Source of the DNA: Limnochordales bacterium
GTDB lineage: Bacteria > Bacillota > Limnochordia > Limnochordales > DUMU01
Reading direction: 5' to 3'
Length of the DNA: 64,000 nt
Assembly (NCBI GenBank): GCA_014896315.1
Contig: JADBKP010000002.1
Coordinates: 103,509-167,508 of the forward strand
The notes under the pieces are model-generated. The model had not been told where the DNA came from, did not search any database, and was given only the letters and a program-made list of their open reading frames with translations. Position numbers and translations under genes: made by a program. Position 1 is the stretch's first letter, and each line of letters opens with the position of its first letter. Shown piece by piece: positions 17,756-23,420 of this stretch.

Positions 17756-19090
17756 TCAAGCCCTTCTTTCTTCTTGCTCCACTCGCGTTACACGTGCCAG
17801 TGTCGAGAAGAATCCGGGATACGACGTATCCACCCAACCTGCGCCTTCGATGCTGACCGGCCCCTCCGCCCAGAGGGCAGCTGTCGCCATGGCCATGGCA
17901 ATCCGGTGATCTCCCCGGCTGTCAACCTCGCCTGACCGAATTCTTTGTGGACCGGGAATGATCAGGCCGTCAGGAGTCTTCTCCACCTTCACTCCCAGTC
18001 TTCCGAGGCAGTCCGCCAGGACCTCAATCCGATCGGACTCCTTCACCCGCAGTTCCGCCGCATCCTTGATCACCGTGACGCCGCGAGCTTGCGTCGCAAC
18101 CACGGAAAGAACCGGCAGTTCATCTATGAGGAGAGGGATCTCCGCCCCGCCGATCTCCGTCGCCTTCAGATTTCCGCCTACGAGGCGAATATCGGCCCGC
18201 GGCTCACCACCCTCCTCAACCAGGTTGGCCACCTCGACCCGCGCCCCCATGCGCTGCAACACCTGAAGAATGCCGGTGCGCGTCGGGTTTACCCCTACTT
18301 TTTCTACCACGATTTCGGCTCCGGGAACCGGTGCGTAAGCGGAAAGAAAGAAGGCTGCCGAGGAGATGTCCCCGGGGATGCGCAGGTGGAAAGAACGCAG
18401 GCGCTGCCCGCCTGCCACCGCTACCCTCCCGCGCCCAGCTTCTTGCCTCATCTCTACCCCGAGGTAGCGGAAGAGCCGCTCTGTATGGTCACGGGAGAGC
18501 GCCGGTTCCTCCACCACCGTCCACCCGTCGGCAGACAGCCCTGCCAGCAGCAGAGCGGTCTTGACCTGCGCGCTGGCAACGGCCAGTTTGAACTCCCTGC
18601 CACGCAAGCTCGCACCGTTGCCATCAACAACCAGCGGTGCCAGCTCCCCCTGACGCCGACCGGAGATCTTCGCCCCCATATCCTGTAGCGGGCGAACGAT
18701 CCTCCCCATGGGCCGCCGGCGCAGGGAGGCGTCACCTGTAAGAATGCTTACACCCGGTACCCGGCAGACGGCCGCGGCAAGAAGCCGCAAACCGGTGCCA
18801 GAATTGCCCAGGTCGAGGATATCATCGGGTTCTTGCCACCCCGCCACGCCCGAGCTGGCGATGCGCACCCTCTCGCCCTGCCTTTCGATCTTAACCCCCA
18901 GCTGCGAGAGGGCCTTGAGGGTGGCCAGGCAATCGGCGCTGTTCAAATACCCTTCCAGTACCGTCTCCCCCGCCGCCATCGCTCCCAGGATCGCCGCCCG
19001 GTGCGAGATCGACTTGTCACCGGGAACCCTCATGGTGAGTGACGGTAGTCCCGGCTGGGGAAAGACTTTCACCACATCGGTGCGATGCAT
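17756..19090 (-). CDS. aroA: 3-phosphoshikimate 1-carboxyvinyltransferase
   Basis: RVPGDKSISHRAAILGAMAAGETVLEGYLNSADCLATL...LGNSGTGLRLL...; ends with SRGDHRIAMAMA. Confidence 0.95.
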   Translation of the reverse strand: MHRTDVVKVFPQPGLPSLTMRVPGDKSISHRAAILGAMAAGETVLEGYLNSADCLATLKALSQLGVKIERQGERVRIASSGVAGWQEPDDILDLGNSGTGLRLLAAAVCRVPGVSILTGDASLRRRPMGRIVRPLQDMGAKISGRRQGELAPLVVDGNGASLRGREFKLAVASAQVKTALLLAGLSADGWTVVEEPALSRDHTERLFRYLGVEMRQEAGRGRVAVAGGQRLRSFHLRIPGDISSAAFFLSAYAPVPGAEIVVEKVGVNPTRTGILQVLQRMGARVEVANLVEEGGEPRADIRLVGGNLKATEIGGAEIPLLIDELPVLSVVATQARGVTVIKDAAELRVKESDRIEVLADCLGRLGVKVEKTPDGLIIPGPQRIRSGEVDSRGDHRIAMAMATAALWAEGPVSIEGAGWVDTSYPGFFSTLARVTRVEQEERRA

Positions 19091-19103
19091 CTGACCTTTC
19101 CTC

Positions 19104-20234
19104 CTACCTCTGGCGACAGGTGAACCCGCGGGCGGCCAGGAGCAGGAGAGCCTCATCTCGCGCGGCTTCCGATTCTACAGCGAGCCGCAAGGTGCCGCCA
19201 AAACCCTCCCTGGCCCGCAGGATCTCAATGTCCGCCAGGTTGATGCCCGCTTCGCCCAGAATGCTGGTAACCTGGGCGATGGCGCCGGGCCGGTCCTGCA
19301 ATTCAACAACAAGTTCGTAAAAGGGCTGGACATACCCCTTGTGCCGCACCGGAAGGCTGCGGCGCACCTCGCAGGCAGAAGATAGCAGGCGCACTAGCTG
19401 ATCCCGGTCGCGATTGGCCACAGCCTCGAGCAACTCGTGCCAGCAGTTTTCCAGTACTTGAGCCGAAGCTAGCAACGGTTCCGCATTGGCAAGCATAATG
19501 TCCGCCCAGAGGTTGGGATCCCCGGCGGCAATGCGGGTGGTATCCCGGAAACCGCCTGCCGCCAGCGAGAGGGTGAGGGGCAAGTCGGCATTGACACGAT
19601 CGGCAGCCCGCACCAACGCCGCTGCCAGAAGATGGGGCAGGTGGCTTACCGCCGCCACCATCCGATCATGGGCATCAGGGTCGACAGTCACGGGAAGCGC
19701 GCCAATCGCCCTGATCCAGCGGGTCAGCCGGGAGATGGCCGGGCCGTTTTCGCCCTCTGCCGTCATCAGCAGGTAGATGGCATTTTCGAAGAGGTAGGGA
19801 TCGGCCGCGTCGACCCCAGGCCGCTCCGATCCGGTCATGGGATGCCCGCCGACAAATTGTGCCCTGCGACCACAGGCGGCCACCGCCTCCATCACGGGCC
19901 GCTTTACGCTGGCCACGTCGGTGACAACCGCATCGGGGTCAGCCAGCTGCAGAACCTGCAGGGTAACCTCGACCACCTGGGCCACCGGAACGGCCACGAT
20001 GACCAGCTCCGCCCCGCGAACGGCCGCCTCCAGCGACCGGGCCGCCTGCGTGATCGCCCCCAGGGCAACGGCCCGATCGAGGCTGCGGGCATCCACGTCG
20101 AAGCCGCTCACCTCCCGGGCCACTCCCCGGCGCAACAGCGCCATCCCAAAAGAGCCCCCGATCAGCCCAACCCCGATCACTGCCACCCGGTTTATCGGCG
20201 TAAGGCTTGTTGCCGCGTCCTCCGGGACCATCAC
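19104..20234 (-). CDS. tyrA: Prephenate dehydrogenase with C-terminal ACT domain
   Basis: VAVIGVGLIGGSFGMALLRRGVAREVSGFD...VTDVASVKRPVMEAV...GGHPMTGSERPGVDAADPYLFENAIYLL; ACT-type C-terminus. Confidence 0.93.
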   Translation of the reverse strand: MMVPEDAATSLTPINRVAVIGVGLIGGSFGMALLRRGVAREVSGFDVDARSLDRAVALGAITQAARSLEAAVRGAELVIVAVPVAQVVEVTLQVLQLADPDAVVTDVASVKRPVMEAVAACGRRAQFVGGHPMTGSERPGVDAADPYLFENAIYLLMTAEGENGPAISRLTRWIRAIGALPVTVDPDAHDRMVAAVSHLPHLLAAALVRAADRVNADLPLTLSLAAGGFRDTTRIAAGDPNLWADIMLANAEPLLASAQVLENCWHELLEAVANRDRDQLVRLLSSACEVRRSLPVRHKGYVQPFYELVVELQDRPGAIAQVTSILGEAGINLADIEILRAREGFGGTLRLAVESEAARDEALLLLAARGFTCRQR

Positions 20235-20258: not shown

Positions 20259-21296
20259 TTACCACTTCACGGGGGCCGGACTGGCCATTCGCCGACCCAC
20301 CGCAGCGGCAACAGCGGCCAGTTCCTGCATGAGCTGGCTGAATTGCGCGGGCGTGAGCGACTGCGGCCCATCGGAAAGAGCCTCTTCCGGCCGGGGATGA
20401 ACTTCTATGATCAGCCCGTCCGCTCCCGCGGCACAGGCGGCGCGAGACATTGCGGGAACATACTGCCGTTTGCCCGTTCCATGGCTTGGATCTACGATGA
20501 TTGGAAGATGAGAAAGCTCCTTTACCACCGGCACGGCATTAAGGTCAAGAGTGTTGCGGGTCGCCGTCTCAAAGGTCCTAATGCCCCGTTCACACAGCAT
20601 GACCTGGTAGTTTCCGCCTGAAAGAATGTACTCCGCGGCCATCAGCCATTCCTCCACGGTGTTTGCCAATCCCCGCTTGAGAAGGACGGGTTTGCGGGTG
20701 ACGGCTACCTCCCGCAACAGGCTGAAGTTTTGCATATTACGGGCTCCGATCTGCAGAATGTCTGCGTACTCAGCCACCAGTTCCACATCTTTGGGGCTGA
20801 GAACCTCGGTGACGATGGGCAACCCGGTCTCCTCCCGGGCAAGACGCAGGAGCTTGAGGCCTTCCTCGGCCAGCCCCTGGAAACTATAAGGAGAGGTACG
20901 CGGCTTGTACGCCCCTCCCCGCAGGATACGCGCCCCGGCCGCCTTCACCTGGCGAGCCGTCTCGACCACCTGTTCCTCTGACTCGACGGCGCACGGCCCG
21001 GCCATCACCACGAATTCGTCACTGCCCACCCTCACGTCGCCGACCTGGACGACGGTCGGCTCGGGCTTAAACTCCCTTCCGGCCAGCTTGAAAGGGTGCA
21101 GGATCGGAACGATCCGCTCTACACCGGGCATGGCCTCGATGTTTTCAAGGACAGCCGGTTTCTTGTCCCCAATCGCACCGATCACTGTCCTTTCCACACC
21201 CGCGGAGAGGTGGATATCGAAACCGAAATGCCGCAACCTGGCGGCTACGTCTTCGATCTGTCGGGGAGTCGCATCTTTTTTCATCACCACGATCAT
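20259..21296 (-). CDS. aroF: 3-deoxy-7-phosphoheptulonate synthase (AroF/AroG-like type with N-terminal regulatory domain)
   Basis: [21 protein letters not shown]...[45 protein letters not shown]...[11 protein letters not shown]. Confidence 0.95.
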
Positions 21297-21336: not shown

Positions 21337-22917
21337 CTAGCCGTCTTTTGAACGGACCGCTGCCAGAACACGATCCAGCGCTGCAAGGAAGCGGCGGTTC
21401 TGTTCCGGCAATCCCACCGTCACCCGCAGAAAGGTCGGATTGCCGAAGATGTCACCCGTCCGCACGATAACCCCCTCCTGCAGGAGTCTCCGGAAAACCT
21501 CGCGGCCGTCGCAACCCAGGTCGAAATACAAGAAATTGGCCTGGGAGGGGATAACCCGCATTCCCCGGGCGGTCAGCTCTCGCGTCAGCTCCTCCCGGCC
21601 CTCCCGCACCAGCTGCCGGGAGCGGGCGACATGGTCGGTGTCTTCAAGAGCCGCCAGGGCTGCTTCCTGAGCCAGGCTGTTGACGTTGAAGGGCTCCCGC
21701 ACCCGCTGCACCAGCGCGACCAGCTCGGCCGGGGCAACTCCATACCCCACCCGCAGGCCGGCCAGTCCGTAGATCTTGGAGAAAGTTCGCAAGACCACCA
21801 CTGGACGTCCCTCGGCCACCCAGAGCAGCCCCGGGGTGTAGGCTGGGTCGTCCACGAACTCATAATAGGCCTCATCCAGGACCAGGATGGTCTCCGGCGG
21901 TAGCTGATCGATCAGCCATTCCAGTTCGGGGCGAGAGATGAGCGTACCGGTGGGATTGTTGGGATTGGCGATAAAGACAAGAGGAGTGCGGGGTACGCGT
22001 GCCGCCGCAGCGATGGCTTCCACATCTACGCGGAAATCCTTAAGAGGAACCGCCACCGGCGTCCCGTCCGCTACCCTGCAGGCAAACTCGTACTCGCTGA
22101 AACTGGGAGTGGGAAAGACCACCCGGTCACCGGGATGTACAAACGTCTCGGCCAGCATCTTGATGAGCTCATCCGAACCGTTGCCCACCATCACCTGCTC
22201 CGCGGAGATGATCAGCGAGCGCCCCTTACCGGCCGGATCATCTCCAACCTGGGCGCTGAGGTGGGCGGCCAGCGCGTGGCGCAGGCGGAAAGCGTTGCCG
22301 TCCGGATAGATGTGCACCTGACCTGCGGCCGCCCGAATAGCCGCCTGCGCGCGCGGCGAGGGACCGAGCGGGTTTTCGTTGCTGGCAAGCTTGATCACAT
22401 CCGTCAGCCCTAATTCCCGTTTCACCTCTTCTATCGGCTTTCCGGGAACGTAGGGAGCGATCTGTAAGATGTTGGGCCGCGGAACTATTCGGCCGCAGCG
22501 GTTGCCCCGCTCGCCACTCCGGCTACTTACCGCGGCTTCCAACGGCTCCGCCTCTGCCTGGCGACCCGCCCAGTCCGGACGCAAGCGAGCAGCCTCACCG
22601 AGGTACACATGAACGGGCGCACCGCTCGGCCGGGGAGCATCCACAAGCAGCATGGCGCGTATACAGCGAGCCAATCCTCCCGGTACGGCCACCTCCTGGG
22701 CGGAGAGGAGCGGCACCTCCTGCAACCCGGCCAGCCTTCCTCCCTCAGCAGGAAAGGCCGCATCCAGATCGGGAGTGCTGGTATAAAAGCCGGCGACAAT
22801 ATCCTCGGGCCCCAATCTGTTGGCCGCCAGGAGGGCCTGCGTCAGCTCACAGGCCGCTCTTAAGATCGCCTGGCGGTTGTTCTCGTTCACTGTAACTGCC
22901 CCGCGTAATGCCCACAA
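21337..22917 (-). CDS. Fusion protein: AroH-type chorismate mutase + HisC-type histidinol-phosphate/aromatic aminotransferase
   Basis: N-term LWALRGAVTVNENNRQAILRAACELTQALLAANRL...FYTSTPDLDAAFPAEGGR...PVHVYLGEAARLRPD (AroH). C-term PRPNILQIAPYVPGKPIEEVKRELGLTDVIKLASNENPLGPSP...LRTFSKIYGLAGLRVGYG (HisC). One uninterrupted frame; TTG start at 22917 inferred. Confidence 0.9.
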   Translation of the reverse strand: MWALRGAVTVNENNRQAILRAACELTQALLAANRLGPEDIVAGFYTSTPDLDAAFPAEGGRLAGLQEVPLLSAQEVAVPGGLARCIRAMLLVDAPRPSGAPVHVYLGEAARLRPDWAGRQAEAEPLEAAVSSRSGERGNRCGRIVPRPNILQIAPYVPGKPIEEVKRELGLTDVIKLASNENPLGPSPRAQAAIRAAAGQVHIYPDGNAFRLRHALAAHLSAQVGDDPAGKGRSLIISAEQVMVGNGSDELIKMLAETFVHPGDRVVFPTPSFSEYEFACRVADGTPVAVPLKDFRVDVEAIAAAARVPRTPLVFIANPNNPTGTLISRPELEWLIDQLPPETILVLDEAYYEFVDDPAYTPGLLWVAEGRPVVVLRTFSKIYGLAGLRVGYGVAPAELVALVQRVREPFNVNSLAQEAALAALEDTDHVARSRQLVREGREELTRELTARGMRVIPSQANFLYFDLGCDGREVFRRLLQEGVIVRTGDIFGNPTFLRVTVGLPEQNRRFLAALDRVLAAVRSKDG

Positions 22918-22982
22918 GAATACCACCTCACCTTGACCTGCTTTTGCTGCACCGCTCTGCCAAAACCGCGAGAGTCCCGGCA

Positions 22983-23420
22983 TCATGGCGGTGACATGCA
23001 GCCTGATACCGCCACCCGATGGCCAAGACCGACGGCAACGTCGTCGAGATGGACAAGGCCCACGCTGGCAACCACTGCAACGACGAGGTGATCGCCCTGG
23101 CGACAGATGGCGGCCTTACCACCTACGTTGAGGCCGACCGCCTTGGCGCTCAACTGCGACATAGCCTCGTGGGCTGCGCCGGCCACTGCCCCAAGCTCCC
23201 CGTGGGAGTCACCGATCACTCCTTCGCGTCGCGCGGCCACGATCGCCCGTTCAATCACCTTGGGAACCTGGCTTTCAAAAGGTCCACCAAAATCGACCGC
23301 CGCAGCCGCTACACCCTGCCTCTGCCACTTTGCCCGGCACTCGGCCTCTTCGTCACGGTCCCACGTAAGGGCCATCTCGAGCGCAGCCCTGGCCACCACG
23401 CGGCTGGCCGTCTGGCTCAT
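22983..23420 (-). CDS. HutP-family regulatory protein
   Basis: AAVDFGGPFESQVPKVIERAIVAARREGVIGDSHGELGAVAGAAHEAMSQLSAKAVGLNVGGKAAICRQGDHLVVAVVASVGLVHLDDVAVGLGHR. Confidence 0.8.
   Translation of the reverse strand: MSQTASRVVARAALEMALTWDRDEEAECRAKWQRQGVAAAAVDFGGPFESQVPKVIERAIVAARREGVIGDSHGELGAVAGAAHEAMSQLSAKAVGLNVGGKAAICRQGDHLVVAVVASVGLVHLDDVAVGLGHRVAVSGCMSPP

Follow-up and report, generated by a model that had tools for sequence, protein, structure and literature searches.

The window (the whole stretch of 64,000 nucleotides of Limnochordales DNA analysed here) contains a gene in which an AroH-type chorismate mutase and a HisC-type aminotransferase are joined in one uninterrupted frame, with both domains matched in Pfam and NCBIfam, as an earlier note on this DNA had proposed. 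Quite probably, the gene gives rise to one chain carrying two active enzymes tethered to each other, the HisC part serving phenylalanine and tyrosine synthesis and also that of histidine, and it arose from operon neighbours, through what were probably several fusions in the class. The earlier note was right about the fusion and the two protein families, but its interpretation overlooked that the fusion recurs and that the protein probably has a role in histidine synthesis.

The fused gene and its product

On the minus strand, the frame has no stop from 22986 down to the stop codon at 21337. The TTG at 22917 is most likely the start of the gene (Table 1), a choice well supported since AGGTGAGGTGG precedes it and since, in the two closest relatives, the equivalent codon is a GTG or ATG standing before the Trp codon (xTG-TGG), with GGAGG upstream. 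Starting there, the protein would have 526 residues, and the coordinates given in the earlier note would be right.

Table 1. Features of the aroH-hisC region, in window coordinates
Feature	Position	Strand	Basis or remark
HutP-family gene, directly upstream of aroH	22983..23420	-	PF09021, E 1.2e-40
AGGTGAGGTGG, Shine-Dalgarno-like	22923..22933	-	5 nt before TTG start; direct reading
aroH-hisC fused gene	21337..22917	-	526 aa + stop, TTG start at 22917 (most likely); ORF, Pfam, NCBIfam
AroH chorismate mutase domain (PF07736 / TIGR01796)	22570..22911	-	Pfam, NCBIfam
Inter-domain linker	22480..22569	-	About 30 aa; poorly conserved, predicted disordered
In-frame linker TTG	22540..22542	-	Preceded by GAGG at 8 nt; perhaps a weak internal start
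HisC-type PLP aminotransferase domain (TIGR01141)	21370..22479	-	Pfam, NCBIfam, sequence and structure searches
DAHP synthase with ferredoxin-like domain	20259..21296	-	Pfam, NCBIfam; same operon, order conserved
TyrA prephenate/arogenate dehydrogenase with ACT domain	19104..20234	-	Pfam, NCBIfam, relatives
AroA (EPSP synthase) reading frame	17756..19156	-	Recognised from translation; start codon provisional

In the 549-codon frame, the Pfam domains are CM_1 (residues 26-139, E 1.9e-34) and Aminotran_1_2 (residues 195-536, E 4.5e-70). The match to PF07736 scores 119 bits against a cut-off of 27 and covers profile positions 3-116 of 116. The family assignments made earlier are borne out by NCBIfam, where TIGR01796 (AroH) is matched with 108 bits against a cut-off of 82 and TIGR01141 (HisC) with 342.6 bits against an equivalog cut-off of 276.55. 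The first domain has its nearest solved relatives among AroH structures, 4zk7 and 1ode for example. Those nearest to the second, according to Foldseek, are HisC enzymes and Rv3772, deposited as a putative phenylalanine aminotransferase, and the sequence search agrees.

The residues needed for catalysis in AroH (which we take to be R7, R63, E78, R90, Y108, and R116 in B. subtilis numbering) are all kept in the window copy, and these active-site Arg, Glu, and Tyr residues do not vary among the 21 fused copies found in the class. In the window copy, the position of C75 is occupied by Ser, which is also found there in solved AroH enzymes. The HisC domain of the window copy retains the PLP lysine in TFSK, the motifs DEAY and NPNNPTG, and the C-terminal arginines; its PLP-site residues are likewise invariant in 21 of 21. 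Both domains are under purifying selection (dN/dS 0.05-0.24 in each).

In the AlphaFold model (526 residues), the HisC domain is mostly confident and the AroH domain less so, while pLDDT lies mostly below 50 over residues 114-161 and near 25 in the linker. Among the fused copies, the linker is 14-44 residues long and its sequence varies. The earlier note saw no ATG, GTG, or TTG at the beginning of the HisC part, but the linker does contain one in-frame TTG, 22 codons ahead of the HisC motif, which, with its GAGG, could give some free HisC in this species. Perhaps, then, one open frame encodes two proteins, starting at TTG 22917 and TTG 22540, and the fused form is incidental or just one product. 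Besides the GAGG placed 8 nt before the linker TTG, it favours this idea that TTG is also the likely start of the whole gene. However, the linker lacks an in-frame ATG, GTG, or TTG in 6 of the 21 distinct fused frames (that of a sister genome of the same genus and five others), and in these the fused protein must therefore be the product. We regard two separate products as improbable.

Roles in aromatic and histidine synthesis

Downstream of the fused gene, where the earlier note had placed tyrA, aroF, and aroA, the order reads DAHP synthase, tyrA, aroA. DAHP synthase followed by tyrA is also found behind aroH and hisC in relatives, whether the two are fused or separate. On the other side, a HutP homologue lies some 30-150 bases 5' of aroH in about 50 other loci across Bacillota. 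HutP is the histidine-responsive RNA-binding antiterminator of hut, and the conserved hutP > aroH pair is for that reason unexpected; a search of the literature found nothing that links HutP with chorismate mutase.

The genome from which the window comes has one AroH and one prephenate dehydratase. The earlier note had called for a check for a separate hisC, and there is none: the fused protein is the only match to TIGR01141 above the cut-off in the genome. The his operon, on another contig, reads hisZ-G-D-B-HA-F-IE, complete except for hisC. The three best of the other class I/II aminotransferases have their highest scores with the aspartate-type, LL-diaminopimelate, and MocR-like families. 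With no other HisC in the genome and none in the his operon, the fused protein probably serves the synthesis of histidine as well as that of phenylalanine and tyrosine, and a single polypeptide may thus sit in three pathways. The HisC of B. subtilis takes part in histidine and aromatic synthesis and is encoded outside a his operon.

The same his operon contains a further fusion, HisH and HisA in one frame (GATase + His_biosynth; L072:7763-9253, + strand). Elsewhere in the class, a second HisC is present in 9 of the 11 fused genomes of one family (f9). In the two of these that were inspected (L184 and L185), it is a stand-alone gene outside any his operon, beside a substrate-binding ABC transporter of the nitrate/sulfonate type. 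For annotation, the fusion carries a warning, as an AroH can hide inside a protein named HisC.

How might the protein work? According to the model that we favour, it would be a single polypeptide with two active enzymes linked flexibly. Its N-terminal AroH domain would convert chorismate to prephenate, and the C-terminal HisC (HisHb-type) PLP domain would transaminate 4-hydroxyphenylpyruvate and phenylpyruvate at the ends of the tyrosine and phenylalanine branches. As the only HisC of the genome, it would also act on imidazole-acetol phosphate in the synthesis of histidine. AroH forms trimers, and HisC forms dimers. We infer this catalysis, these substrates, and a fusion that mainly fixes stoichiometry and co-assembly instead of handing over an intermediate directly, which is the simplest role to propose for it.

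The earlier note suggested that the fusion could couple prephenate formation to transamination. As an idea, coupling is plausible, but the AroH and HisC steps would follow directly on each other only with a HisC domain that takes prephenate as substrate; if it does not, PheA or TyrA comes in between. The usual substrates of HisC-type enzymes are phenylpyruvate, hydroxyphenylpyruvate, and imidazole-acetol phosphate; prephenate is not one of them. If the HisC domain nonetheless turned prephenate into arogenate, the unstable prephenate could pass directly from one active site to the other. Two catalytic domains on one chain would suit such a channel, there are known cases of fused enzymes with a shared unstable intermediate, also prephenate (PMC4921024), and a similar idea was put forward for a hisHb-tyrA fusion (PMC1173090). 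Against it, the domain is nearest to HisC enzymes and Rv3772, whereas prephenate aminotransferases of known structure stand much further away, those of plants coming far down both the sequence and the structure lists. The disordered linker of the AlphaFold model, moreover, shows no sign of a channel, and the sequence of the HisC domain offers no support for its accepting prephenate. We regard direct transfer as improbable. A little less likely still is the bolder idea that the fusion recurred because the HisC domain transaminates prephenate, making AroH-HisC an arogenate synthase and providing an arogenate route to tyrosine built of unrelated parts. In any event, the fused protein is a natural bifunctional enzyme with which to ask whether fusion brings coupling or co-assembly only.

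Spread and origin of the fusion

The earlier note did not consider the fusion common and proposed a search by domain architecture. AroH is encoded by 45 of the 73 genomes of the class, and 21 of those 45 have AroH and HisC in one frame, Bacillota MAGs among them. In most of the unfused AroH-bearing members, aroH and hisC are adjacent yet separate, a few bases apart or overlapping. Outside the class, the samples searched gave no AroH-HisC fusion among the matches listed, nor was there an NCBIfam model for the fusion among the matches listed, and no description of a fusion between an AroH-type mutase and HisC was found in the literature searched. The fusion may be uncommon beyond the class; within it, it recurs.

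The class is represented mostly by draft assemblies, in which a sequencing or assembly error might have deleted a stop or start codon. However, the same fusion occurs in 21 genomes with differing linkers, one of the carriers (G004) being a 3.8 Mb single-contig genome. An artefact, to which we would grant next to no probability, is effectively ruled out on these grounds.

A tree was built from both domains of 50 loci. On it, the fused or separate state needs four changes, a number stable over bootstrap trees, although only two of the four are forced by strongly supported branches. The groups with the fusion are families f9 and f2, a single member of f12, and the pair of f1 and f3 (joined with moderate support). 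Since the fused state needs four changes, the fusion probably arose more than once in the class. In family f4, of the same order, aroH has no hisC next to it, and a HisC over the cut-off is encoded elsewhere in 3 of the 4 genomes. The ancestral operon was probably aroH > hisC > DAHP synthase > tyrA, with the two neighbours already side by side; aroH and hisC would have become joined when a stop codon was lost or a short stretch between them was deleted, probably several times. That the same two operon neighbours were joined recurrently, and apparently independently, suggests selection for joining them.

Comparison with known operons and fusions

The AroH-HisC fusion is a modest variation on what is already known. 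Fusions described before join PheA or TyrA to an AroQ-type mutase, and TyrA to HisHb or AroF (PMC1173090). Other partners of AroH were also met. An Anaerolineales MAG has AroH with prephenate dehydratase and ACT in one frame (L159:3881-5200, + strand), which corresponds to the AroQ-PheA P-protein with AroH in place of AroQ; DAHP synthase and tyrA come next. Within the same phylum as the window, AroH is joined with cytidylate kinase (L088:1917-3158, - strand), and a type II dehydroquinase with AroH (L089:1997-2881, + strand).

The fusions of AroQ with PheA or TyrA resemble the window's in joining a chorismate mutase to a later step of phenylalanine or tyrosine synthesis, but AroQ is an unrelated, all-helical mutase, whereas the window's AroH has a different fold and its partner is an aminotransferase. 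HisHb-TyrA of Rhodobacter sphaeroides (PMC1173090), like the window's protein, unites a HisHb-type aminotransferase with an aromatic-pathway neighbour; there, however, HisHb stands at the N-terminus and is joined to TyrA, while in the window's protein HisC stands at the C-terminus, behind AroH. The aromatic string described for Gram-positive Bacillota runs aroG > aroB > aroH > hisHb > tyrA > aroF (PMC1173090). This operon of Bacillus and Listeria has the same neighbours as the window's, in nearly the same order, but keeps aroH and hisC separate, whereas in the window they are one gene, with the DAHP synthase gene standing between hisC and tyrA.
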